From Polytrichum commune (lineage: Eukaryota; Streptophyta; Polytrichopsida; Polytrichales; Polytrichaceae), in assembly GCA_950295325.1 (NCBI GenBank), contig OX485807.1:5336501-5400500 (forward strand): DNA of 64,000 nt. The letters are read 5' to 3'. The translations under genes were made by a program, and so were the position numbers. The notes below the pieces were generated by a model that worked only from the letters and a program-made list of their open reading frames with translations, did not search any database and was not told the DNA's origin. Positions 1-18,300 of the stretch are shown here, piece after piece (positions within the stretch are counted from its first letter, which is position 1; every line of letters begins with the position of its first letter).

Positions 1-71
1 AGCACGCGCATACATATGTCTTTATTTGTTCATAGTCGGCGGAAAGGTCCAGACAACAAAAACATGACAAT

Positions 72-490
72 TTTATGGGCGCGCATCCGTAAATCTCTTC
101 GTGGTCAAAGAGGTCAATATCATGCGCAAATGTTTTCGCAAACTATACAACATAGGTATACGGACGTGCGTCCGCAAACATCCGAATGTCAAAAGTCAGT
201 GTTGTGCAAGACACACAGAGGTTTAGGAAACCAAGATGTCTAGGTGCCAGGTTCCTACTGTGTATTATGAATGTCAAAATATTATACTATGACACATAGG
301 ATGATGTAAGCTTAGGGTTTAGGGATCTTATACCTCCATTGACCATACAGTCTCAATGTAATATTCTACATGGCACATAGTGAAAAGTATGGAACCAAAG
401 GTTTGCAGGTTTACGGACGCGCGTCTGTAAACCTCTCTGTACCTCATTACTAGCACAAATAGGTTTAGGTTACTGGACGTGAGTCATAAA
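72..490. repeat. decayed copies of the CGCGCG-centred palindrome
   Basis: Four imperfect versions of the palindrome found intact further right lie here: about 72-95, 157-178, 407-432 (nearly intact, one arm mismatch) and 470-490 (very degraded). Several differences are C-to-T or G-to-A changes at CpG positions, as in CGTGCG for CGCGCG. No gene is recognisable in 1-590; the flanking sequence is AT-rich. Confidence 0.6.
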
Positions 491-591
491 ATTTTCATGA
501 CAATACAGTCTCGTTGGTATACTATACATGGCAAGTGGTCATGATGTCAGCTCAGGTGCAATACCGAACAATGGAACAAAAAGGTGCAAAA

Positions 592-900
592 GTTTACGGA
601 CGCGCGTCCGTAAACCTCAATGTAGATGAAATAGGTCAAGTATAATTCTCACTGCAATAGATATCCAATCAAGCAAGAGGTTAAAGGTTTACGGACGCGC
701 GTCCGTAAACCTCAATGTACATGAAATAGCTGAAGTATAATTCTCACAACAATAGATATCCAATCAAGCAGGAGGTTTAAGGTTTACGGACGCGCGTCCG
801 TAAACCTCAATGTACATGAAATAGCTCAAGTGCAATTCTCACAGAAATAGATATCCAACCAAGCAAGAGGTTTAAGGTTTACGGACGCACGTCCGTAAAC
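592..900. repeat. 95-bp tandem repeat, each unit carrying one 24-bp palindrome
   Basis: Palindromes begin at 592, 687, 782 and 877, exactly 95 bp apart. Each has the core ACGGACGCGCGTCCGT with GTTT/AAAC extensions. The fourth has one central change (CGCACG). The spacers share an AT-rich sequence (CTCAATGTACATGAAATAG and AATAGATATCCAA) with only point differences. This is a local tandem amplification of a palindrome-containing unit. No coding sequence is recognised in it. Confidence 0.9.
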
Positions 901-2109
901 CTCCGTGATTTGCGGCGCCATAATAGGACCATTTCACCAGGAACGATACTTGCCATAAACAAAAATCAATCACTATAAGGATCCAGACAGTGCAATCCAC
1001 ATAAAAATTGGCTCCACTAATGGGTTTATGGCTTGGAATTTAGTGTTTAGGGTATAAAAGGTCCATTGCAATAGGATCTGTACGTGCACGAAATAAACAT
1101 CCAGAACACTACAAGGGTCCAAACAGCGCAACCCACATCTGAGATGCAAAAAGAGTCCCTTGGTGGAGGGGTGTCCCCTTAAGTACTGATCGTTTCCCTT
1201 GGATCCGTTTTCCAACATAGGATACTAGCCACCATCTACGTCCTATAAATAAAAACCTAACATTACTACATTCCGTGTGCCAGCCTTACAATGGAATGTG
1301 TATTCATAGTGGACAACATGCATAGACGATGAGTCCACATAATGACAAAGCAAAAGGCATCTACGTATTTCTGGTGGACAACAAAGAAAATAGGCTAATA
1401 ATATATGAGCATTGAACATTGTTGAGGGGTGGTTTATAATATTGAAGTACCTAATATTGAGAGGTCATTGTAGAACTAGGAGACAGAAAATTATAGTGTC
1501 GTGTGAAACATCAACCACAACAATAACAATAGTACATGGAGTATAAAAATACGTGTCATTCAAAATTAAACTAGCATCTATTTTATTGTTTTGCATACGA
1601 TGTAATGATATTCACTCCAATATCATGTTATCTCCTCTCATCTAGCATTTAAACTAGTAATTACATTTGCCACCACCCTACCATCCAACCCGTTTAATTT
1701 ACCCACTTTTACACACCTATACATAATTATATTAATACGTACACAAACTTTGAGCGCCTATGAAAATAGCACATCTATTGTCATAGGCACTATGGGTTGC
1801 TTTAAAATCAATATTCTCAATTTCCTCTCTTAACCTTAGGGCCCCCTTCAATACATCAACATTTATTTCAAAAAAAATAATACTACCATTCTTAATGTAC
1901 TATACGTGAGACAAAAAACAATTTTTAGTACCCCATGTACATTATCTACAATATTGACTCAAACAATAGCAGTTGTTGTTCTAAGTAACATTATGAGCCC
2001 AACAAAGCATAATGGAGAGAAGGGGAGGGTAGGGTATCCAAATATTATAAAGGCAAGCAATTTTAAGTTGGTGACAGAAGGGGGATACTCTCATTAGTTC
2101 ATACGTGGT
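901..2109. other. gene-free stretch
   Basis: AT-rich sequence with scattered stops in all frames. I see no exon-like segment or recognisable mobile element. Two related phrases near 985-1015 and 1105-1135 (a perfect-looking 'caatccacat' / 'caacccacat' context) hint at a small old duplication only. Confidence 0.5.
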
Positions 2110-2174
2110 ACCCTAAATCCTAAACCCTAAACCCTAAACCCTAAACACTATACCCTATACCCTATACCCTATAA
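2110..2174. repeat. interstitial telomere-type repeat (CCCTAAA)n
   Basis: About nine units run from CCCTAAATCC through CCCTAAA units to degenerate CCCTATA units. CCCTAAA is the usual plant telomere repeat. A second short tract lies at 28939-28965 and a degenerate one at 46083-46111 inside a MORC intron. An interstitial relic is more likely than a chromosome end, since ordinary sequence continues on both sides. Confidence 0.85.
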
Positions 2175-2944
2175 CCGCCCACCCCTGAACAAACACGACG
2201 ACATACGGTACGCATGGTTAACTGAATAACTCCCAATACATGTGTAGCCTTAAGTGGAAGTAATTCAAAACTATATGACTACCTTTAAATTTTGTAAAAT
2301 AAAACCATTAACATTTCAAATGTGAAGCAAATTTAGGGGTAACCTTACCTTTCATTTTTTTAAATCTTTCTTTGGCTTTAAACCATTTGCTTTAAACATA
2401 TACTTTTGATGAAAGGTTTTGAAGATCGTATATTGGTATTCTATAATCGAGTCCTAAACACAACTCACCACCGAAAGAAAACTCCAAATATAAACAAGTT
2501 TGCTACTACTTATAAGCGATAATACAAGCTGAGGCCTATGTGTGGAAGGATTGGATGGATCCGAAAGGTTGTTTAATGTACAAGAGGGATGTACATTCAA
2601 CACATACCCATGCATTTTGTTTTAATACAAGCTTAGACCTATGTGTGGAGGGATTGAATTAATCTGTAATGTTGTTTAAGGTATTACAAGCATATGAATT
2701 CTCCCCATATCTCGATGTTTCGGTTTTGTTAATTGCGTTTCACAACTTATTGCGATAATTGAGGGATTCACAAGTATTTCTTGGCAAAGTTTCATGAGAA
2801 TTTGTGGCCAATTGGTATATTGCCCCAATTGCATTTGAATCCCACCTTTGAGAAGAAAAAGAATTCTTATACTGAAGTTAATCAACAAGACATCCTTTTA
2901 TTGAATATTATTACTATTCTCGAAATATAGAGTCCCCTCCATAG

Positions 2945-3894
2945 CTCGGGGGGTGCACTGTACTAAACATGTACGAGTTATACGTGAGTGCACAGGAGGG
3001 GTATTGATTTGGACCTTGCCGTATTGCATATACATATGGTATACATGTTATAATTTATAGTTACGTACATATATGGAAGGCCTTTAAAAAGTATACAATA
3101 ATTGTACTTGTATGGTATTGTTACTATACTATATATCATAAGTGTTCATATTGGATAAGTTTTCATAAGGTTTGGTTTGTTGGGAGAGTTTATAGGATGC
3201 GGAGGAAGTTTGGTAATCGTTGGGTGGAGTATAGGGATCCATTTGACTTGATGGACCGTCCATCAAACGTGGAGATTGGTTTATGTTGGTATCAAAAGGG
3301 GCTAACAACAAGTGGACATATGATCTTATTGATCATTCCATGGTAGACTTAGAGACAATAATTGCATTTGTATACTTATGTTAATGACTCTCGGGGGGGG
3401 GGGGGGGGGGGCAGTCATTGGTTGAAGTAGCAATATACGTGCAAACAAATGATAGGGTATTTTAAAAACATGGGGGCAAAAAATTATAAATGGACTTAAG
3501 AGTAATATAGGGTATCAAAAATGGCACTGGACATCTTTAAAGTAGTATAGGGTATGGAATAATAGGTAATTTGGAATTATAAGTAATGCAAGCCATTTTT
3601 CTATTAACCCAAAGTAGAAATTTATATAATGATAGCATGTGAAAAAAATAAGAGAATTGAAAGTAATACCCCCCTATATCCTTATTTTTTTAACACACTG
3701 CCCCCCCGAGTAATGACTAATATATATGAATGGATGTTTTTTTGTGTATACATATTGTCGCTTGTATATTTATTGTTGCAATTGTATGTGTATTACTTCA
3801 TTTCACAAAAAATCACTTGTATATATTAGGGGGTTTTTAGAGTATGCAGTGAACGCACGTGATTCTAGGTTTTAATGAAAGGTGCTCCCCCACT
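2945..3894. mobile_element. hAT-like non-autonomous DNA transposon, copy 1
   Basis: The imperfect terminal repeats are CTCGGGGGGTGCAC on the left and GGTGCTCCCCCACT on the right. They are flanked by the 8-bp duplication CTCCATAG at 2937-2944 and 3895-3902. Sub-terminal sequence (GTGCACT...ACATGTAC and TTTTAATGAAAGGTG) is shared with copies at 19848, 27464 and 42698. An internal segment at about 3190-3310 keeps an open stretch related to the 20.2 kb copy (MDRPSN..IG.CWYQK), probably a remnant of the parent element's protein. A second MITE (3390-3710) is inserted inside. An 8-bp duplication fits the hAT superfamily; the assignment is inference. Confidence 0.75.
3390..3710. mobile_element. G-run-terminated MITE, copy 1, nested in the hAT-like element
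   Basis: The terminal inverted repeats are CTCGGGG...GGCAGT on the left and ACTGCCCCCCCGAG on the right. The target duplication TAATGACT is present at 3382-3389 and 3711-3718. The 321-bp AT-rich interior has no coding capacity. A second copy in inverted orientation lies at 13698-14042 with a different 8-bp duplication. The poly-G end varies in length between copies. Confidence 0.9.
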
Positions 3895-4489
3895 CTCCAT
3901 AGAGGCTACACTAGAAATTGTAGTTAGTTTCTCTCATTGTTTGGAGTTCCAAAATGATATTATTATTATTATTGATGTCATTTAATTGTTGACAATGACA
4001 TAATAATTTACTCAACCTCACACCCTAATATAATTTCCTAAAATAATGAATACTTTCTAGAGCTCGTATGAATATTTCACTCATTATCAAAAGTGAAGAG
4101 AAGAGGCAACGAGATGGCTCATTTTATATTTAGAGTGACATTTAGTGTGACTTTTAACTTGCCTTAGCATAAACATAAGATGTTATTATGACATAATATG
4201 ATAATAAAATCACCAAACTAAGTATAAATTAAACCCCTATTTCAATACCAAATATAGACCAGTAGGGTGATGCCACGTAAGGGTATAGGCCGGCGATTGG
4301 GCGCGACGTTTGGGGTAGGGACACGTGGAGGCACGCCATTGTTTTAGGGTTCCAAGTACTCCAGCACCCTTTCGCCCTCGCTCTTCGTGCTTTTCTTTCC
4401 TTCTCTATCATCTCTTCCTTCCTTTCCTTCTACTGTTGCTCTTGCTTCTCTTGCTTTAGGGTTATAGGGTTTCAAAGTACACCGGCTCC

Positions 4490-4810
4490 CTTTTGCCCTC
4501 CTCTTCGTGCTTTTGCTTCCTTCTCTTGCAGCTCTTGTTTCTCTTGTTTCTCTTGCTCATCTGCTCTTGCTTCTCTTGCTCATTTGCTCATCTTCTCTTG
4601 CTCATCTGCTCTTGCTCATCTTCTCTTGCTCATCTGCTCTTGCTCATCTTCTCTTGCTCATCTTCTCATCTTCTCTTGCTCATCTGCTCATCTTCTTTTG
4701 CTTCTTTTGCTTCTCTTCACTTTCTTCTCTTGTTTCTTTTGCTTCTTACCCTTATCTTCACTTTCTTCTCTCTCTTCTCTTGCTTCCCTTGCTGGTCTTG
4801 CTTCTCTTTC
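4490..4810. repeat. pyrimidine-rich minisatellite (TCTTGCTCATC-type)
   Basis: Irregular repeats of CTTCTCTTGCTCATC and CTTTTGCTTC run across this stretch on the plus strand. Long open frames here encode only Leu/Ser/Cys/Phe strings and are composition artefacts. It could be part of a transcribed leader for the gene starting at 6464. Confidence 0.7.
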
Positions 4811-4845
4811 CTCACAATGCAAAACTCATTCTTATTGGTCAATTG

Positions 4846-4859
4846 CTGACGCGCGTCAG
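4846..4859. repeat. palindrome variant CTGACGCGCGTCAG
   Basis: A perfect 14-bp palindrome keeps the GACGCGCGTC core of the main family, but has T..A outside it in place of G..C. Both arms changed together, so dyad symmetry is intact. It lies between the pyrimidine minisatellite and the presumed leader of the next gene. Confidence 0.7.
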
Positions 4860-5244
4860 AGCTAGAGTAAGTTCTCCTTGTTTGCTACTCATTTGCTTAT
4901 TAGCTCATTAGTAAGTTTTGCTTGCTGCTTGCTTGCTTGCTGCTCATTAGATCATTAGGATGCTCATTGTTGCTTGCTACTGCTCATTAGGTTGTTTTCA
5001 GTTGTTGATCTCAGTTGTTGCAAGGGTAATTAGTGTTTCAGATGTTGCTCATTAGGGTTTCAGTTGTAGCTTCACCATGTAGTTCATTATATTTTTTGCA
5101 TACAAATCAATAGTTTCCTTTCACTTGTGTTGCATGAATCTGATTTATGAGCAACTTTTTTTGAGTAGTTCTCAATGTTGAATCATGCATGTGCACATTG
5201 AATTACTAGAGGTTTCTGACCTCAATTTTATTGTTCATTTGCAG

Positions 5245-5588
5245 TTGGTATTAGCTGCAGCAGGAGCAGCTAGTTGTGGTTTAGGAGCAAACACTCTAGA
5301 AAGGTAAGTTTTTTAGAACATTGCAATTGCATTTTGTATGATTGCAATTTTGGGTTGTTGTGGTTTAGGGCTTAAGGTTAGCATGAGAGAATGTGAGATT
5401 CCAGTTTCAAGGAATTCTGAATTTGTTTAGTACTTTGTCTATAGCTACATTCTAATAATCATTTAGTTATGGACATGTCAGTGTTCTGAAAGTGCCTTAT
5501 GTTGTCAATCTGCAGTGCAGTGTTTGCTATTGCAGTGAAGTAAGATTGCATTCTTATTTGGAGGGCAAAACCATATTGGACGACAAGG
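5245..5588 (+). other. possible 5' leader exons of the ParB-like gene
   Basis: Two segments look like exons by their splice signals: about 5245-5304 (preceded by TTTGCAG, followed by GTAAGTTTT) and about 5515-5588 (preceded by TCTGCAG, followed by GTAAAG). The start codon of the downstream gene at 6464 sits directly after an acceptor-like TTTGCAG, which implies a spliced 5' leader. Neither segment has a convincing coding frame. Inference from splice consensus only. Confidence 0.35.
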
Positions 5589-5639
5589 TAAAGTCCCGAA
5601 AAACACGGAGTATTAATGAAAACATTGGAATACGCAAAC

Positions 5640-6130
5640 ATTACAATAGCCTTTATAATCCTCAAAGTTTACGGACGCGCGTCCGTAAACTTTGTGGATC
5701 TTTGTGTAGGTGAGAGACAAGCCTCTCAAACAACATATTACGCAAATGAAGCCAAATATTGTAATATTAGGCATATTAAAATAGCCTTTATAATACTCAA
5801 AGTTTACGGACGCGCGTCCGTAAACTTTGTGGATCTTCGTGTAGGTGAGAAACAAGACTCTCAAACCGCATATTACGCAAACGAAGCCAAATATTGTAAT
5901 ATTAGGCATATTAAAATAACCTTTATAATATTCAAAGTTTACGGACGCGCGTCCGTAAACTTTGTGGATCTTTGGGTAGGTGAGAGACAAGCCTCTCAAA
6001 CAATATATTACGCAAACGAAGCCAAATATTGTAATATTAGGCATGTTAAAATAGCCTTTATAATACTCAAAGTTTACGGACGCGCGTCCGTAAACTTTGT
6101 GGATCTTTGTGTAGGTGAGAAACAAGACTC
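5640..6130. repeat. 135-bp tandem repeat, each unit carrying one 24-bp palindrome
   Basis: Perfect 24-bp palindromes begin at 5667, 5802, 5937 and 6072, exactly 135 bp apart. The unit contains CCAAATATTGTAATATTAGG and ATAGCCTTTATAATACTCAA phrases. Because 135 is a multiple of three, the array is open on both strands and gives spurious repetitive proteins with period 45 residues. It lies just upstream of the ParB-like gene, probably in a 5' UTR intron. The spacer is unrelated to that of the 95-bp array, so only the palindrome is shared. Confidence 0.9.
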
Positions 6131-6211
6131 TCAAAAATATATGTAGGTGAGAAACAAGACTCTCAAAAAAATATATGTAGGTGTGAAACAAGACTCTCAA
6201 AAAAAATATAT
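6111..6211. repeat. about 33-bp tandem repeat
   Basis: Three units begin with GTAGGTGAGAAACAAGACTC or a close variant at 6111, 6143 and 6177, each ending in a growing A-run and ATATAT. They look like a secondary slippage expansion at the right edge of the 135-bp array, as the same phrase occurs in that unit. Confidence 0.8.
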
Positions 6212-6261
6212 TAACCGTAACTTGAATACATTGATATTTACCACCATACTATCTTTGCGAA

Positions 6262-6410
6262 GTTTACGGACGCGCGTCCGTAACTTATAGAGATATTTGA
6301 GTATATAATATACGCGTTATGCGTATTTGGAAGAAATGTATCTTTTCATTTGGATCCAAAAATGTAATTGAGACAATTTGGAAAACTTTACGAACGCGCG
6401 TTCGTAAAGT
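6262..6410. repeat. two further palindromes, one with matched changes in both arms
   Basis: 6262-6284 is a near-complete copy of the family palindrome. 6385-6410 is a perfect palindrome with the core TTACGAACGCGCGTTCGTAA: the usual GGACG has become GAACG and the opposite CGTCC has become CGTTC, so symmetry is retained despite the sequence change. Both lie between the 135-bp array and the ATG at 6464. Confidence 0.85.
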
Positions 6411-6463
6411 ATGATCTATATCTTTTGCCAAGAATTCTAACTTATCTATCTTATCATTTGCAG

Positions 6464-9400
6464 ATGGCATCTAAAAAGAGACATGCAATTGAGATGTTCG
6501 CAGAAGCTCTCATTCCTCCGCTACTAGAAGCCATCAAAGACATAAGTCCCAACGACCATTACAAGCCACAAGATGAAATTGTGGATAATTGGACAGTATT
6601 GGTAGAAACGGACGAGAAAGAAATATTTGTGCTTAGATTTGCATATCAAATGAAGACGGACATAGATGAAGCTGAGAAGTGGATAAAGCTTAAATCGTGG
6701 ACAGTAGAGTGTGCAGTGGCACAAGGGGATTATGTAGTAATAGACCTTGAGAAGAAAGAAGATCGGGTTACTTTCATTTTGCACGAATCCTACCACCCCT
6801 TCAACAAAAATGAGTGTGAGAATGCTAGTACAGATGCGGCTTGCTTCAATCTCCAGACGGAGTTCCAAGACTATGCATGCAATGCACCTTGGACGACTCT
6901 TGAACAATGTAACAAGAGTAAATGGAGCCTTGCTAGAGGCCAGAAAGGGGAAAGAGAAGAAAAAACAAGTCGTTCCTGAACGACCCAAGCGTGTGCCTAA
7001 ACCAGTGCCGGAATCCTCAAGGCCCTCGCAGAGTGGTGCATCAAGAGAGAGCAGACAGGCGAGTAAACGCTCTCACTCGCAGATGGACTCTAGACTAACA
7101 GAGGGTCCGGATGTCAGCTCTACACTGACTGTCGCTCCACTCCTCAAAAAGGGTCAACGCCCTGACGCCGAACTCTCAACAAAAATATTCCAAGAGTTCG
7201 ATGAGAAGACGAAGGGATGCTGGCCCCTTGGCAGGTATTTTACTTTCGAAGTAGACGTCTACAAATGCCACAAGGGCACCGAAAGTATGAATACCAGAGC
7301 AAAAGAAGAAAGCGGGGTATGGTGGCAAATGAACAACATCATGAACAACCCCAAGTTTGACAGGCAGACCATTTGTGTGACACCAAAGGATCCTATCGTT
7401 GAAGTCAACGAAAAAAATTGGCCGATTCTCAAGAATGGAGAGTTCTACATTGTCGACGGCCAACATAGTGTAATGGCTGCAAAAGCTCTCCTTGAAGACG
7501 ACGAGTGGAAAAACCCATTAAAGGAGACAATCCGATATTGGAAGGCATTCGTCGTGCATTCCAAGGACTCGAACCAGCTCATAGCAATATCTGCCTTCAT
7601 GAACCAGGGGAATAAAGTGAGGCAGTTCGAGGCTTCATGGGCAGCCAACATCGTGGCTGGGAGGACCTTGTGGGTGGAGCACGAATGTCCCCCTAAAGAA
7701 AGAGATAATGCAGTCGTGAAGAACCCAAAATGGCAGGTATGTTATTCAAATAGATTTACGGACGTGCGTCCGTAAATGTGGCCCTTCTCCTCCCACTGAT
7801 TCAAATATTTGAATTTAATCTGTACTGAATTCAATGTTCTGATTTCTTGCAATTCGCGCCTCTTGCAGACATTCAACAATGCCATATTGACAAAGTTCTC
7901 GAGTATAGACATGAAGACAAGCGGCATGAAAACAGTGCATGAATTAAAAGACGAACTCAAGCTCATCACTGCAACAGAAGAGACGTGGTCAATATGGTTG
8001 CGACTTTTCGATGCCCACAACAACGGCGACCTTGTCAATCCAGATACGGAGAAAACCTACAAGAGCGACTCAAAAGTTAAGGTACCACCAATCCTGCGAG
8101 AGTTCTTTCGTCCCCTCCAAGGATTGATGGACTCGGAGTTGTATAGGGCAGCAGAACACATTCTTCTAGAAACTCCTAGAAGAACTCTGCCCTATCCCAA
8201 AATCTTTCTGAAGCGGCCGAAGCACATGAAGCCATCCACGTACCACATTAAGGAATGGTGCGATTACAGAAAGAAGAATACCATGGCTGTAAGGGAGATT
8301 AGCAAATTGCTACCCACCTACAACCTCATTAATAGTGATGGTGAGATCGTGTGGGAGAATTGGAGGAAGCTGAAGGGTGAATACCACATCAATGGCGTCT
8401 CAATGCAAGCTTTGATAAGAGGGGCATCATCCTTCCTTGCCCAACGATCCAGAAGGAATGAAAAGAAGGGATCCATCGACGAGAGGGAGGCAGGGTTGTA
8501 CGTTCACTTTCTCGATAGGAAAAAGAACGCGAAATTTGGAGGGTTTGCAAGATTCTGCACGGTCGCAAAAGGCATGAAGTTCGGCGCATGGGACACCCAT
8601 GCTTCAAGAGCCTCTGTGAGAGATGACCCCAGGGGTTGCCCTTTCGCCATTTTTGATTTTCGTGCAATTCCCGTAGCATGGAAGCAAGACGTTGCGGGAG
8701 CACCCTTCTACGAGCCCTTCTTAAAAGCCTTCAAGAGCTATCGCTCGCCTGCCCTCTTCGAGCCTCATGTGTGGTTATGGATTGTAGAGCAAGAGAGGTC
8801 CACATCCATTGTCCATCTGTACACATCAACGATGGACCTCGAATACGATATGTACCACAGCACCTACATCCCAGCGAAGACAGAAGGGATCACTTTCATT
8901 CAAGAGGCAAGGGGGGTGAAGCAAGTGGGAGCTGTGCAGCTTTATTTCTTAACACGCAAGTCTTCCCCAACTGGGCGATTGCCCAATAAACCACACGAGG
9001 TGTTCAGGAAAGTCTATTCGTTGCCGCCACTACATCCCAAGGAGCTTGTTGAGGAGACAATGCATGCAATCTATCCGGCGTTCGAGCTCCGGATGGACTT
9101 TTATATAGGGGTCTTGAAGGCTTTAACTATCATGAGTGAGACAGTTTACAACGTCTTCGGAGGCACGAAGTTTATGTATGCAGCACTGGTGAGTATTTGT
9201 TTGTCTTTTAACCCACCTATCTTTTGCATAGTTATTTTACGGACGCGCGTCCGTAAAAACCCAGTATCAGGTGCATGTGAATTTTACAACCGTGCGTCCG
9301 TAAAATTGTCCAACTTTTGAGTGGTGGTTTTACGGACGCGCGTCCGTATAACGTGTTGACATCTAGCCTCATTTATATGCAATCACCACTATTGTTCTTA

Positions 9401-9805
9401 TCTAATTTTCTTGTTATGGTCCAGATGCTTGGCTTGCAGGTGAATTCTTTTGTGCAGGATTCCGACTACGATGACGCCCATACTCACAGGGTAATGGCCT
9501 CCAAAATGGATATCCAGGACATCATGGACGTCCTTACACCCCATCCTGTTGTGCCTCTTTCTTCTAGAGAAGAGGCAATGCCCGGAATGGAGACAGACCC
9601 TGAAGAGGACCAAGATCCCAGTTCCCCAAGAGCGCAACCCTCCACACAGGAGCCTTTACACGGCCTTGTTCGCGACCCAATTAATCCAAGTGTTTTCCTG
9701 CTGGGAACAGACGACACGGATGCGCAGGAGGCACGCGTGAACTTCACTCCGATAAGGGTCCCTCATACCCCTGTTCTCTCACCTTTTGGGACTCCCACCT
9801 CTTGA
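6464..9805 (+). CDS. ParB/DGQH-domain protein with methyltransferase-like C-terminal part, frameshifted
   Basis: I infer three coding exons. Exon 1 is 6464-7736, exon 2 is 7869-9188 and exon 3 starts at 9425; both introns are phase 0 with GT-AG ends. The ATG follows an acceptor-like TTTGCAG. Exon 1 begins in one frame and continues in another; the switch is best placed at the A6 run 6960-6965. A ParB-like nuclease signature, VDGQHSVMAAKAL, lies at about 7452-7490. In exon 2, HPKELVEETM, then VFGGTKFMYAAL, then in exon 3 MLGLQVNSFVQDSDYD resemble the C-terminal order in beta-class N4/N6 amino-methyltransferases (HPTQKP, FxGxGTT, G...E.D..Y). An upstream IFDFRAIPVAW sits where DPPY/DPPW would be expected but lacks those residues, so activity is doubtful. 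The frame ends at a TGA (9803-9805) after which the same frame is again open. The family placement is my inference from motif order; no exact homologue is recalled. Confidence 0.6.
7754..7777. repeat. palindrome in intron 1 of the ParB-like gene
   Basis: ATTTACGGACG TGCGTCCGTAAAT fills the 5' part of the 132-bp intron 7737-7868. One central C-to-T change (CGTGCG) breaks otherwise perfect symmetry. Confidence 0.85.
9235..9350. repeat. three palindromes in intron 2 of the ParB-like gene
   Basis: The intron 9189-9424 contains a perfect copy at 9235-9258, a decayed copy at 9281-9306 (ACAACCGTGCGTCCGT core) and a near-perfect copy at 9328-9350. All three have TTTT/AAAA-type outer arms rather than the GTTT/AAAC arms of the arrays. 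Confidence 0.85.
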
Positions 9806-10856
9806 GTTGGATTTCCCTCAACTGCGGGTCCATCTCATGCTCCAGGAGTTATGGCCGAGAAGGATGTGGACCTTGCGGCAGAAGGCGGATGCACCGCTTC
9901 ATCTGGAGGGGGATCTCAACATTCAGATCTACCCCCTATGGAGGGGAGGGATGTGCTGGAGTTGATATTGAGGCCTGATATCTCTCTATATCGTGAGAGT
10001 CGACGAAAGAGGAACAAGACGCCATACAACGAATACCCTGAAGGCGCGGTCTTGGAGCTCTCCGATGAAGACGAGGATGAGATTAGGATTCACAATGCCA
10101 TCTTTGCCTTGCCTACGGAACCTGGCAAGGTGAAGAAAGAGCCGATGTCAGTGTCCGAATTGGACGAGAAGATGGAGAGGCGAATGAAGGAAGAGCTTGA
10201 CCAACGGCTTCGAGAAGCTAACGAGGAGCACGCCAAAAAGATGGCCGCCATCCAAGCTGAGATGGAGCAAGCTAGGTTGGAGTCTGCTCGAAGGCACGCC
10301 GATCTCATGGCCCAAAATCAACAGTTCTTGGCCCAAAGTCAACAATTTATGAGCCTGATGCAGAGCTTGCAGGCAAGACCCCCCTGTAGTCTATACAGCT
10401 CCCGATACCGTCATGTCTATGCCCCCCACTCTCATGCGGCCTCCGTCTAGTAGCCATGCGGTGTATATACCCGAGCATGCTTATCCAGCCCCCGCGTTGA
10501 TTGTCCCGCCCTCTCCCCTTGTTGTCGCCACTCCAGAGGAGCCCTCCTCTCATCCTACAGGAGTGGAGGAGATACCGGCACGTGACATGGCGGGTGCCGC
10601 CGAGACAGATATCAATGAAGGCAATGCCCCCATCGGCGATGAAGATGTACATATGCGGGGCAGCCAAGACTCCACAGATGAGGATCAGCCTTATGTGGAT
10701 ACTCAAGGGTCGCAAGCGGCTGGAGACACCTTGTTGGTGGTCGAAGATCTGGACAATTTTGCGGACGCGCGTCCGGATCCTGTGCCCATGACGGGGCCAG
10801 GTGAGGGAGGCACTGCTGGCGCGGACCTCGCCCCTGAAGAGGTAATCAACCTTTGA
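9806..10856 (+). pseudogene. coiled-coil and acidic tail, continuation of the ParB-like gene past a stop
   Basis: After the TGA at 9803-9805 the same frame stays open to about 10378. It encodes an acidic stretch (ELSDEDEDEI) and then a Glu/Gln/Arg-rich coiled coil (EKMERRMKEELDQRLREA onward). At the C6 run 10379-10384 the sensible frame changes and continues as a Pro-rich, then acidic, low-complexity tail to the TGA at 10854-10856. An ATG at 9851 could start a separate protein, but the seamless frame before it favours one longer gene broken by a nonsense change and a homopolymer indel. I cannot separate true decay from assembly error. Confidence 0.5.
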
Positions 10857-10886
10857 GCATGCCTCCCACGTTACGGACGCGCGTCC
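10762..10886. repeat. two palindrome cores, one inside coding sequence
   Basis: CGGACGCGCGTCCG (10762-10775) lies in the acidic tail and reads ADARPD in the coding frame. GGACGCGCGTCC (10875-10886) lies about 20 bp after the stop codon. Both keep the perfect inner core but have lost part of the outer AT arms. Confidence 0.8.
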
Positions 10887-11229
10887 AAAACTTCCTTGTC
10901 TGCCTCCTTCGTGGCGTGTGTATATTATCGAGTTCAATCCTCGACTTCGCCCGGCGGGTGGATACAATTTTGTTAGCATAGATTCCATTAACTTCAACAG
11001 ATATTTTTTGCGACAATGTATATTATTCACCAAATGTGTATCACCAATTACATTAATACCAATTTTTCAACTGGATGGTTCGGATTATTTTTGGCCTTAT
11101 AATTTGTGTTGAGTTTATCCATGCTTGTCAATTGGTTTTCTTGAGTAGTACCATTTACCTAGATAGAATGTTCCATCACAGGGTCCGTCGGAGATATGTC
11201 GCAACCCCGCGGGAAAACAAAGCGCGCCC

Positions 11230-11949
11230 ATGATGAAACCGTTCATAATATTTGACCTCAATGGGGTGCTTTGTCAATCCAAACATATCTCGAATAGTGC
11301 GTCCAAGGGGCCCTTCCGTAGTCCACAAGACATGGATTACGGCGGACATTTCGATACTCTCATAAATAAGAAGGTTGTACGTGCCCGCCCCGGTTTGAGG
11401 AGCTTCCTTCGTGAGGTCCTTGGCTTCGCCCATGTCATCATCTAGAGCTCTATGCTCATGGACAACACGAAGGCCATCGTCGGTTTCCTTTTCCGAGAAC
11501 TCGCAATGCCATGCTTGCTTCTCGGTCAAGAACACTGCAATGACCTCTATGACCGTAGTGGCAATATTGTACCCAAGGTCGGAGGAGGTCGTGGGCCTCA
11601 ATTCTTAAAGGTCCTGAGGAAGAACCTCTGGGTGGGCGTCCCTATGTTGGAGGGGGTTCCCCACGGTTGTTGGCCCACCCCGGATAACACACTCCTCATT
11701 GACGACAGCCCGGCAAAGAGTATTCTCAATCCCCCGGGCAATTGCATATTCCCGGATCCTTGGGAAAGCGATAGAAATGACAACTTTCTAGAGAGTGAAC
11801 TAGGACCCTACATTAGGAGGCTTGCCTATCACCCCAGAAGTGTCCCGGATTTTGTGCTCTCCAACCCAATTGGCAATAGGCCTCTAGGCCCACAAGATGA
11901 GGAATTTAGGAGATTGTACGGCTACGCTAGACTCAATAAATTAATATGA
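11230..11949 (+). pseudogene. FCP1/NIF-type HAD phosphatase-like protein, interrupted by one TAG
   Basis: The start FIIFDLNGVL is the HAD motif I of the plant NIF/FCP1-like group, where DLNG replaces DxDG. LLIDDSPAKS near 11695-11725 is the conserved DDSP motif of that family, and PDPW and a Tyr/Arg-rich end follow. One frame is open from 11230 to 11949 except for TAG at 11443-11445. The following SSMLMDNTKA sits where the family has WSSxxxDN, so the stop replaces an expected Trp codon by a single G-to-A change. The gene lies 370 bp after the ParB-like gene on the same strand. The second motif I Asp is Asn, as in plant relatives, so catalysis is uncertain even without the stop. Confidence 0.7.
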
Positions 11950-12041
11950 AAACTTTGATGATTTTGGGTTTGTACTTGGACTCTCCATGTAAATATCTAA
12001 CATTTCTCCCCTTATCTTTGTAATGTATTTTTGTGTCTTAG

Positions 12042-12938
12042 TTGCCTCACCAAGCACCCAAAAGTGTCGTCAATGGCATGTCTGCATCTCAGGCAGACAC
12101 CGGCTCCCCTTCCCTTGGTATGAGCGACGTTGCAATGCCTTCACTATTCCAATATTCGGCCGTCGATGCTGCCTCTGCTGTTGATTACTCCAAAGACTCC
12201 GGGTTTGAAGACGGAGTCGTGGATAGCCCTCCTGCAAAGGTTGCAAAACTCAATTACTCTCCAAGTCCATCTCCATCTCCCCTCCGCAGTGAGAAGCACG
12301 TCCGTAACCCACGGTCGACCAAACGCCTTTGCATGGATGAACCCCAAATTGATGTCCCGGCGTTTGCAAACGTCCCTCTCGGGCTTGTATCTACACCCGT
12401 CGATGTCCCAAAAGCTCTAACCAGCGCCCCAAAGGCGAAGGTGCCCAACTATTGGCATTCTCAAGTTTTTCCTTGATGATTTCCGTGTATTAGTGCATTT
12501 CAACTTCTTGGGTTTTTCGGACTTCCATCCGTAACTTGTAACCACTTATACTAACCCACTTCATTATATATATTTATGGTCATTGTTCAGACCCCAATGT
12601 ACACGAATGTGGGCCGGGCATCATCGACTTCGTCATTGGATAGGCGAACATTGAAGACAGCTTCTTGCGAGTCTGATCGTTGTTTGGCCCTACGGAAGAG
12701 TGCAAGACGTTCGGTTTCCCAAACGCATTCGTATTCCACTTATTCGGAAGGGGGTCGGCAAATATGGGCAAATGGCGCATATTTGGGGTCAACAAATAAA
12801 CAAGGTTACAGCCGCGGACCCGAGATCTTTAGGGCCATGGAGGCCATGAAAGCAAAGGAACGTGAAACGGCCGTAAATGCTAATAATAGTATTGCAAAAG
12901 CAAAAGTAGTGAGTCGTAATCATGATCCGAACGTATAG
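12042..12938 (+). CDS. unknown Ser/Pro-rich protein, two 3' exons
   Basis: Two segments join in phase 0: about 12042-12440 (preceded by TGTCTTAG, ending AAG before GTGCCC) and 12591-12938 (preceded by TTGTTCAG, ending at TAG after NHDPNV). The first encodes a Ser/Pro/Val-rich stretch with SPSPSPSPLRSE and a basic patch (NPRSTKRLC); the second is basic, with a short helix rich in Ala/Lys/Glu (AMEAMKAKERE). The intron between them holds a decayed palindrome (about 12514-12534). No upstream exon or start codon is clear. It may belong to the HAD gene above through alternative structure. No known domain. Confidence 0.4.
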
Positions 12939-13697
12939 GCTATATTAACATACATGTAGTTGTGGAATTATGTTTCTAGGACTTTCGCCTAATATTGGAT
13001 ATTCCACTTGCATTTTGTACTTCAACCCCTATTCAATAAATATGATATTGATTTTCCATATGCAAATGTTTTCATATATCCCATTTTCTTATTGTTAATG
13101 TGTAGTTCCATGCATTTGAGTCTCTTATTTGTTTCCAAAATTGGGAACATAGCATATTTTTAGTGTTTTCATTCCTATAAATGTGAAAGCCACGTCCTTA
13201 AATAGTCTCAAAATTAACAAAAAGTCTCCAAATAACGAATATAGTGTTATAGTGTCATCCCAAAAAATACTTTAAGTAAACATATATGGTTTGGGAGTAA
13301 ATTGTGAACCAAGATTTTGGGTAAATAGTTTCACTATAGACATCTTATTGATATATTGATGAAATCCGTAGGTAGTTGAATGAAAATAATGATCTACAAA
13401 CAGCTTCTTGCAATTAGAGCTATAATTATGGCATTGGGTTCTTGTAGTTGGTTACACTATCATCTTGCTCACCCCGCCATATTAAGGAGGTAGGGCAAGC
13501 TGAGGAAGAGAGACATTTCTTTAGATAGTTTGAGTGAATTGGTGAACTCGATAGTCTTGTCTCCCTCGACCGAGTGATTGTGTGAGATCAAATGCTAAAC
13601 TATTTTCTTTGTACAAATAGCAATCACGGCAGTGATTGTGGCATTGCGGCTTGTGAGAAAGCGCTTCTTGTTTATCTCCAAGTATGAGTTATATACA
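12939..13697. other. gene-free stretch
   Basis: AT-rich sequence with no exon-like or repeat structure that I recognise. It marks the right edge of the palindrome-bearing locus. Confidence 0.5.
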
Positions 13698-14042
13698 CTC
13701 GGGGGGGGGGGGGGCAGTGTGTTAAAAAGTTAAGGATATAGGTGCGAACAACCACTATTTTATAGGGGGGTATTACTTTCAATTCTCTTCTTTCTTTCAC
13801 ATGCTATCATTATGTAAATTTCTACTTTGGGTTAATAGAAAAATGCCTTGCATTACTTATAATTCCAAATTACCTATTATTCCATACCCTATAGTACTTT
13901 AAAGATGTCCAGTGTCATTTTTGATACCCTATATTACTTTTAAGTCCATTTATAATTTTTTGCCCCCATGTTTTTAAAATACCCTATCATTTGTTCGCAC
14001 GTATATTGCTACTCCAACCAATGACTACCCCCCCCCCCCGAG
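13698..14042. mobile_element. G-run-terminated MITE, copy 2, inverted
   Basis: CTCGGGG...GGCAGTGTG on the left and CCCCCCGAG on the right are flanked by the 8-bp duplication TATATACA at 13690-13697 and 14043-14050. The interior is the reverse complement of the copy at 3390-3710, with phrases such as CTTTGGGTTAATAGAAAAA and TACTTTAAAGATGTCCAGTG. Non-coding; hAT-type by duplication length. Confidence 0.9.
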
Positions 14043-17171: not shown

Positions 17172-18300
17172 AAAACAGAAACTGCTGCCAGGCTTGATAT
17201 TTGAGATTGGGAGTCTGTAAGGAAAGAGGCGAGGCCGGCCGCCAGTGTGCAGGGTACTGCCACGTGTGGTAGCTAAGTTAGTGACACTGATAATGCGCGA
17301 TTAGGGTGTCCCACGCTAATTTACACTGTCATTCCACACAACTGTATTTTAAGAATATAGTATCCCAACAAACTAAATATGAAGAGATATTTGTCTACTG
17401 TGGTTGGCACTGTATGAATGAATAGAATAGAAGTTATGTTAAGTTTCTGCAAAACGGAAATGCCTGACTTGATATTCGAGATTGGAGTCTGTAAGGATAG
17501 AGACCGCCCCCGTCCGGGTTCTCCCCCAGTGTGCAGGGTACTGCCACGTGCGGTAGCTAGTAACACTGATAATGTGCGCTTAGGTTGTCCCATGTTAATA
17601 TACTGACATTTCACACTACTGTATTCTAAGAAAATTTTATCACAACAAACTAAATACGAGATTTCTGTGCTGTTTTTTTATCTACTGTGGTTGGCATTAA
17701 TATATGAATGAATAGAGTAAAAGTTATGCTATGTTTTTGCAAAACAGAAATGCCTGACTTGATATCTGAGATTGGAGTCTGTAAGGATAGAGGCCAGCAC
17801 CCCCAGTGTGCAGGGTACTGCCACGTATGGTAGCTAGTAAGACTGATACGTGTGATTAGGTTGTCCCATGCTAATTTACACTGACATTTCACACTATTTT
17901 AAGAAAAAATATCACAACAAACTATATATTATGATATTTTTGTGTTTTTTTTCTACTGTGGTTGGCATTAATATATGAATGAATAGAGTAAAGTTATGTT
18001 GAGTTTTTGCAAAACGGAAGTGCCAGGCTTGATATTTGAGATTGGAGTCTGTAACGATAGAGGCCAGCCTCCCCAGCGTGCAGGGTACTGCCAAGTGTGG
18101 TAGCTAGTAACACTGATATGTGCGCTTAGGTTGTCCCATGTTAATATACTGACATTTCACACTACTGTATTTTAAGTATATAGTATCACAACAAACTAAA
18201 TACGAGACTTTTGAGTTTCTTTTGTGTACTGTGGTGGGTGCTATATGAATGAATAGAATAAAAGTTATGTTAAGGTTTTGTAAGCTGGTTTTGAAAGGTA
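17172..18300. repeat. about 280-bp tandem repeat, four copies
   Basis: Units begin near 17172, 17450, 17741 and 18010 with AAAACRGAARTGCC. Each contains TTGATATTTGAGATTGG, AGTGTGCAGGGTACTGCC and a CACTACTGTATTTTAAG phrase, and ends in a TTATGTTRAGTTT segment. Spacing varies (278, 291, 269 bp), so this is an older array than the palindrome arrays. Non-coding. Confidence 0.85.

Follow-up and report, generated by a model that had tools for sequence, protein, structure and literature searches.

A 64,000-nucleotide stretch of the Polytrichum commune genome (C5:5336501-5400500, hereafter the window; the searched genome comprises 408 Mb in 64 contigs) includes part of a 17,188-bp DNA transposon (C5:5332561-5349748, with its left 3.94 kb upstream of the window) that carries many copies of a palindrome with a 16-bp core, ACGGACGCGCGTCCGT, around a gene whose product contains a DGQH motif. 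Clades of this transposon, which differ in their DGQH proteins, bear palindromes of different half-site in the same zones, and this clade-wise change therefore supports recognition by a protein that the element itself encodes. We consider it probable that the palindromes are recognition sites of such a protein, most likely the DGQH protein, and that they serve to regulate or un-silence the element. The original prediction had offered two ideas, that the repeat is recognized or modified by the neighbouring protein and that it is a selfish sequence spread with it: the first gains support from the clade-wise change of half-site, and the second holds in that palindrome and DGQH gene, as parts of one transposon, spread together.

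Within the window, the core occurs 18 times at ≤3 mismatches, always within positions 75-10,888, whereas shuffles yield a mean of 0.03 and a maximum of 1. At ≤4 mismatches the whole element holds 22 cores, 20 of them inside the window, and two weaker palindromes (at element positions 2276 and 3895, with 4 and 3 mismatches, respectively) lie to the left of it. The predicted count of about 20 copies in the first 13 kb and none beyond is borne out, as are two tandem arrays with units of 95 and 135 bp (Table 1), and none of the three clade half-site motifs described below was detected at ≤2 mismatches in positions 13,301-64,000. The repeat had also been thought confined to the locus of one gene: the clustering is real, but its limit is not a property of the gene, as the palindromes end near 13 kb because the transposon ends at position 13,248. 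Genome-wide, there are 1,097 exact cores (and none of the reversed control), and 49 of the first 50, all on contig C1, are situated ≤12 kb from a listed DGQH match (about 0.6% expected), as anticipated if core density peaks near DGQH gene copies; the fiftieth occurs in a partial element of clade F1, the clade of the window element, with ten palindromes at ≤2 mismatches. Searches with F1, F2 and F4 queries scored 136 of 963, 103 of 1,053 and 137 of 993 first-look DGQH candidates, and judged by these lists, which partly overlap and are lower bounds, DGQH copies number in the hundreds. The identical score (606.2 bits) of thirteen F4 matches suggests a recent burst.

The ends of the element were set by comparing the window locus (copy W) with five other core clusters (A-E, all on C1), which gave sharp boundaries common to all. 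A terminal repeat, AACACTATATTCG, and 4-bp target duplications were present in all seven complete elements examined (ATAG in the window, CACT in A, ATGG in B, AATT in C, TTGT in D, TTTA in E and ATGA in an F2 element), and oriented copies start with AACACTATATTCGTTAATTGGAGACTTT and finish with a near reverse complement of it. Over aligned columns, identity to the window copy is 82-99% for A, B, D and E; copy C (C1:37083664-37116385), in which about 15 kb of additional DNA lies immediately to the left of the zone-1 array, was omitted from this alignment. Palindromes at ≤4 mismatches number 21-26 per F1 copy (W, 22; A, 23; B, 23; C, 23; D, 21; E, 26), and they reside in zones 1 and 2, introns 1 and 2, the 3' exon and the stretch before a phosphatase gene (Table 1), with array spacings in D and E that are unlike those of the window copy.

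Half-sites follow the clades: they read ACGGACG in F1 and F1b, ACGAACG in F4, and GGGTCG in F2. Identity of the DGQH exon to that of F1 is about 82% in F1b, which keeps the ACGGACG half-site, about 50% (46-50%) in F4, and about 35% in F2. A complete F2 element (17,669 bp, C1:36932225-36949893), located beside copy B and having a nearly identical terminal repeat and the same gene order, contains 29 sites of the form GTTTGGGTCG-NN-CGACCCAAAC, counted with ≤1 mismatch among the 12 letters of the half-sites, and these occupy the five zones that hold the palindromes of F1. The F1 core was absent from this F2 element at ≤3 mismatches, and the F2 site was absent from six F1 elements at ≤1 mismatch. 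F4 copies carry TTTACGAACG-NN-CGTTCGTAAA, in zone 2 and intron 1 at five loci and in zone 1 at one locus. In a follow-up sample of 15 loci, drawn from the three match lists at rough steps and thus not formally random, the clade was fixed by protein identity, after which about 0.9 kb upstream was read: the clade's own motif was the best in all 15 loci, and it is also present in 18 of 18 loci of the discovery set. These counts leave out F3, a third family present as a truncated element beside copy A with few palindromes and one exact ACGAACG-type site. Had most DGQH copies lacked the palindrome, the proposed link would have been in doubt; all 33 DGQH loci whose surroundings were read carry palindromes, but the exact ACGGACG form is found only in F1 and F1b.

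As part of a multicopy element, the palindromes might be neutral hitchhikers, either tandem duplications or remnants that ride along with it, and indeed the arrays grow and shrink by tandem duplication and sites within a clade are shared by descent. This explanation is nonetheless highly improbable, given that F1, F4 and F2 hold unlike sequences in identical zones, that spacers are replaced while sites are kept, and that the core on average evolves more slowly than its flanks. Thirteen single-copy F1 palindromes show 8.5% divergence in the 22-bp core versus 20.1% in flanks of 50 bp on either side, with the data pooled from five non-independent pairs of copies. When the palindromes in zone 2 of seven sequences were masked, the only alignments were between the F1b loci L026 and L028 and, in two short pieces, between E and W; no alignment was obtained for W with D, F1 with F1b, F1 with F4, or one F4 locus with another. 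The sites thus outlast the sequence between them. There are five CpGs per core, with CpG observed/expected ratios of 0.46 in the background and 0.44 in zone 1 minus its palindromes, and the sites decay at CpGs, since 66 of the 142 departures from the core (among 115 F1 sites, copy C excluded) are CpG transitions.

An element-encoded binder is favoured because the sites precede both main genes and occur in introns, appear to be kept by selection, and change across zones together with the accessory protein. The DGQH protein would be the best candidate because it diverges fast, its gene adjoins the sites, and its sequence contains a motif that is ParB-like. Protein identity between F1 and F2 is 67-76% in the N-terminal and catalytic parts of the putative transposase and 47-53% in its C-terminal part, compared with 29% and 48% by segment in the DGQH exon (35% overall), 37% in the second exon, 25% in the DGQH C-terminus, and 42% in the phosphatase; between F1 and F4, the transposase is 82% identical in its C-part and, by segment, 64% (most of its length) and 89% in its N-part. 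The ratio of nonsynonymous to synonymous divergence (dN/dS) of the DGQH exon is 0.095 from F1 to F1b (dS 1.6) and 0.057 within F2, with dS saturated in the remaining three DGQH pairs. The palindromes might instead be internal transposase sites, acting as transposition enhancers or repressor sites: they are element-specific, the transposase too varies between clades, and a 257-bp miniature inverted-repeat transposable element (MITE; L005:8965-9221, F2-like ends, duplication CTGG) keeps a single palindrome of the F2 type with 2 mismatches, a match that none of 5000 shuffles gave. Yet we regard this as unlikely, for the sites are placed in upstream regions and introns and, except for the one at element position 2276, are at least 3.9 kb from the left end and at least about 2.4 kb from the right end; moreover, the terminal repeat is nearly identical across clades although the palindrome differs, and the transposase is overall the least diverged gene compared, though its C-part overlaps the DGQH range. 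A further argument, that MITEs are free of palindromes and that the sites are therefore dispensable in cis, was withdrawn, the sole MITE of this family examined being the one that holds this decayed F2-type site.

Dyad symmetry extends beyond the half-sites in F1 (match of 0.66 at offset 4 versus 0.37 with shuffled partners) and F1b (0.84 at offset 6 versus 0.38), values that tandem copies inflate; F4 and F2 show little of it past offset 4, and in both the 2-bp centre of the palindrome is free. Such symmetry around a free centre is the trace that a dimeric DNA-binding protein would be expected to leave. That protein could in principle be a host factor, such as a transcription factor or part of the silencing machinery, or the palindromes could form hairpins in transcripts, and both the extended symmetry in F1 and F1b and the location of sites in upstream regions and introns fit this proposal. 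We find it quite unlikely, as three half-sites at the same positions in one genome are hard to reconcile with a single host factor, and a free 2-bp centre would, we reason, be more in keeping with double-stranded binding sites than with the loop of a hairpin.

The original prediction described the gene as a fusion of ParB-like and methyltransferase-like regions. Its ParB-like part finds weak agreement with a profile (phrog_1033, best E 0.025, in two of six proteins), and the DGQH motif is invariant in all six aligned proteins; the methyltransferase part had no significant match, and the label draws on a motif and a published analogue. That motif is FGG in the second exon, recognized by eye; the exon, searched apart from the one that follows it, was without a significant match in any search. 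The DGQH exon forms a single open frame, often of 474 amino acids, in many other copies. The minus-strand gene in the left 4 kb matches Pfam DUF7869 (4.5e-40 in copy B, to which other copies match by sequence), and we infer that it encodes the transposase because of its place and conservation; the term DUF7869 was not found in the openly licensed literature searched. Pfam NIF was matched in two window pieces (0.0041 and 4.3e-05) and in the F2 copy (3e-14). An N-terminal YEATS domain was considered and dropped, being below the Pfam cut-off in F1 (E 0.0036 in a window piece, 0.017 in copy B) and matched in only one of six family members.

Several results weigh against reading the palindromes as recognition sites of an element-encoded protein, most likely the DGQH protein. 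For the DGQH proteins there was no confident database match, and Pfam, NCBIfam and PDB gave no significant hit to a ParB family; single-sequence AlphaFold models had mean predicted local distance difference test (pLDDT) scores of 37 and 32 and were unusable. The clade rule is not absolute: an exact ACGAACG-type site is present in 6 of 11 F1-labelled loci, and three of the four follow-up F1 loci hold one in addition to their own motif. As read from these sequences, the independent half-site changes are only about two, and agreement within clades is largely due to descent. Two of the thirteen sites lack a slower core (element positions 2276, 11.8% versus 11.3%, and 14813, 8.2% versus 7.2%), and zone 2 minus its palindromes is not CpG-poor (observed/expected 0.84). 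Because the transposase and the phosphatase also differ between clades, the sequence comparisons do not prove that the binder is the DGQH protein.

If the palindromes are recognition sites of an element-encoded protein, each element would encode its own, most likely the DGQH protein, which is ParB-like and diverges fast, and this would act as a dimer that binds two half-sites around the free 2-bp centre. Binding to the arrays could keep the element's promoters active in the face of host silencing that acts on CpG-methylated DNA, or could regulate them in some other way, and the NIF/FCP1-type phosphatase may join the same pathway. Almost as possible are roles in which the protein autoregulates transcription or modifies its own element.

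VANDAL elements combine a Mutator-like transposase with a VANC-type protein. In VANDAL21 of Arabidopsis, as far as the sources consulted describe it, VANC motifs (9-mers in one orientation) are arrayed upstream of VANA and in the introns of VANB and VANC (PMC5735166), and the VANC protein rids the element that encodes it of DNA methylation (PMC5735166; PMC10398659). The element described here resembles it in having arrays of element-specific motifs that precede the transposase gene and also occupy introns of accessory genes, and in the divergence of both motif and accessory protein between related elements; it differs in that its motifs are palindromes, that its transposase matches DUF7869 only, and that Pfam scans of its accessory proteins found no VANC-type domain. 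Methylation loss is established for VANC, and by analogy we infer a VANC-like anti-silencing function as a candidate role for the element protein here.

Target duplications of 4 bp are a feature of the Sola1 superfamily, and they are present here; the putative transposase matches Pfam DUF7869. In the available parts of PMC12477816, a 21.5-kb Ectocarpus element, Sola1-1_Ec32, is reported with a ParB-like and N4/N6 methyltransferase gene opposite its transposase; its authors suggest that proteins of this kind bind the transposon that encodes them and modify it epigenetically, and cite cases from green and from red algae (Iyer 2011; Petroll 2025). Both are giant DNA transposons, the present one of about 17 kb, and in both a large accessory gene is oriented opposite to the transposase, but palindromes and clade-wise motif change, found here, do not appear in those parts of the text; the element described here also has a gene for a NIF phosphatase, and its methyltransferase domain is assigned by motif only. 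No report of palindromes with ParB-methyltransferase transposons was among the matches listed in the openly licensed literature. ParB-methyltransferase transposon genes and the idea of self-binding are thus already known; the apparent novelty lies in the families of sites, in their specificity to clades and in the partnering phosphatase.

Like prokaryotic ParB/DGQHR-type proteins, the element proteins have a DGQH motif (6 of 6) and are accompanied by palindromic sites; they differ in that their profile similarity to these is weak and that they are encoded by an intron-containing gene of a eukaryotic transposon. Prokaryotic parS sites are palindromic. The palindromes are a candidate cis partner for transposon ParB-type proteins, with three matched protein/site pairs in one genome. 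We put forward only tentatively that they constitute a second, independently evolved system of sequence-specific anti-silencing or self-marking, in transposons of a plant-like genome, made of a prokaryote-type ParB-like protein and self-directed palindromic arrays, in which the separate pairs of coexisting clades would avoid cross-activation. If binding proves true, the VANC strategy would have arisen more than once, and the DNA-binding proteins would form a new orthogonal set whose palindromic sites are long.

The features of the window copy, with exon limits inferred from open frames and GT/AG sites, are listed in Table 1. This copy is defective, owing to frame changes and stop codons in the DGQH and phosphatase genes.

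Table 1. Transposon features in the window (window positions).
Feature	Position	Strand	Remarks
In-window transposon part	1..13248	+	right end ...GAATATAGTGTT at 13,248, target duplication ATAG
Palindrome zone 1, upstream of putative transposase gene that runs leftwards from outside the window	75..896	.	sites 75, 160, 413, 596, 691, 786, 881
95-bp tandem array of zone 1	588-903	.	95-bp unit
Unrelated small MITE inside element	3390..3711	.	CTCGGGG...CCCCGAG ends, 8-bp duplication TAATGACT
Weak palindrome (4 mismatches) upstream of DGQH gene	4845..4860	.	core scan
Palindrome zone 2, directly before DGQH ATG	5671..6405	.	sites 5671, 5806, 5941, 6076, 6266, 6390
135-bp tandem array of zone 2	5640-6142	.	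135-bp unit
DGQH (ParB-like) exon	6464..7736	+	frame shifted near 6.9 kb in window copy
Palindrome, intron 1 (inferred 7737-7868)	7758..7773	.	core scan
Second large DGQH-gene exon, methyltransferase-like by motif only	7869..9189	+	open frame
Three palindromes, intron 2 (inferred ~9190-9424)	9239..9347	.	sites 9239, 9286, 9332
DGQH-gene C-terminal coding part	9425..10856	+	broken: TGA 9803-9805, frame change near 10.38 kb
Exonic palindrome, C-terminal DGQH coding part	10761-10776	.	translated as ADARP
Palindrome between DGQH and phosphatase genes	10873..10888	.	core scan
NIF / FCP1-like HAD phosphatase gene, downstream exons inferred	11227..12938	+	TAG 11,443-11,445 in window copy

Compared with the window copy, copy D (C1:30492468-30511533) has 90-96% identity over its first 3 kb and last 2.2 kb and 50-89% between them. 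The transposase C-part gives a dS of 0.19 for B to D, and the second DGQH exon one of 0.84 for W to D; clades may exchange modules by recombination. Copy B (from C1:36951047) is about 1.15 kb from the complete F2 element, and copy A (from C1:27947644) adjoins the truncated F3 element (from C1:27941143); these transposons may cluster or nest.

A viral origin was rejected: the viral_contigs set contained no relatives of either of the two exons and no exact match to an 18-bp form of the core, and three stretches in it that fit a peptide pattern do not encode a relative. A composite transposon bounded by the 240-nt inverted repeat at 3439-3678/13761-14000 was likewise rejected. The repeat belongs to an inverted pair of MITEs (3390-3711 and 13698-14042, 97% identical over 240 nt, with CTCGGGG...CCCCGAG ends), which are two separate insertions because their 8-bp target duplications differ (TAATGACT and TATATACA) and one lies inside and the other outside the element. 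The window also has an ACCCTAA-type repeat at 2110-2176, which together with intron-bearing genes marks the host as plant-like, and, outside the transposon, a 270-bp unit in about four tandem copies at 17186-18280.

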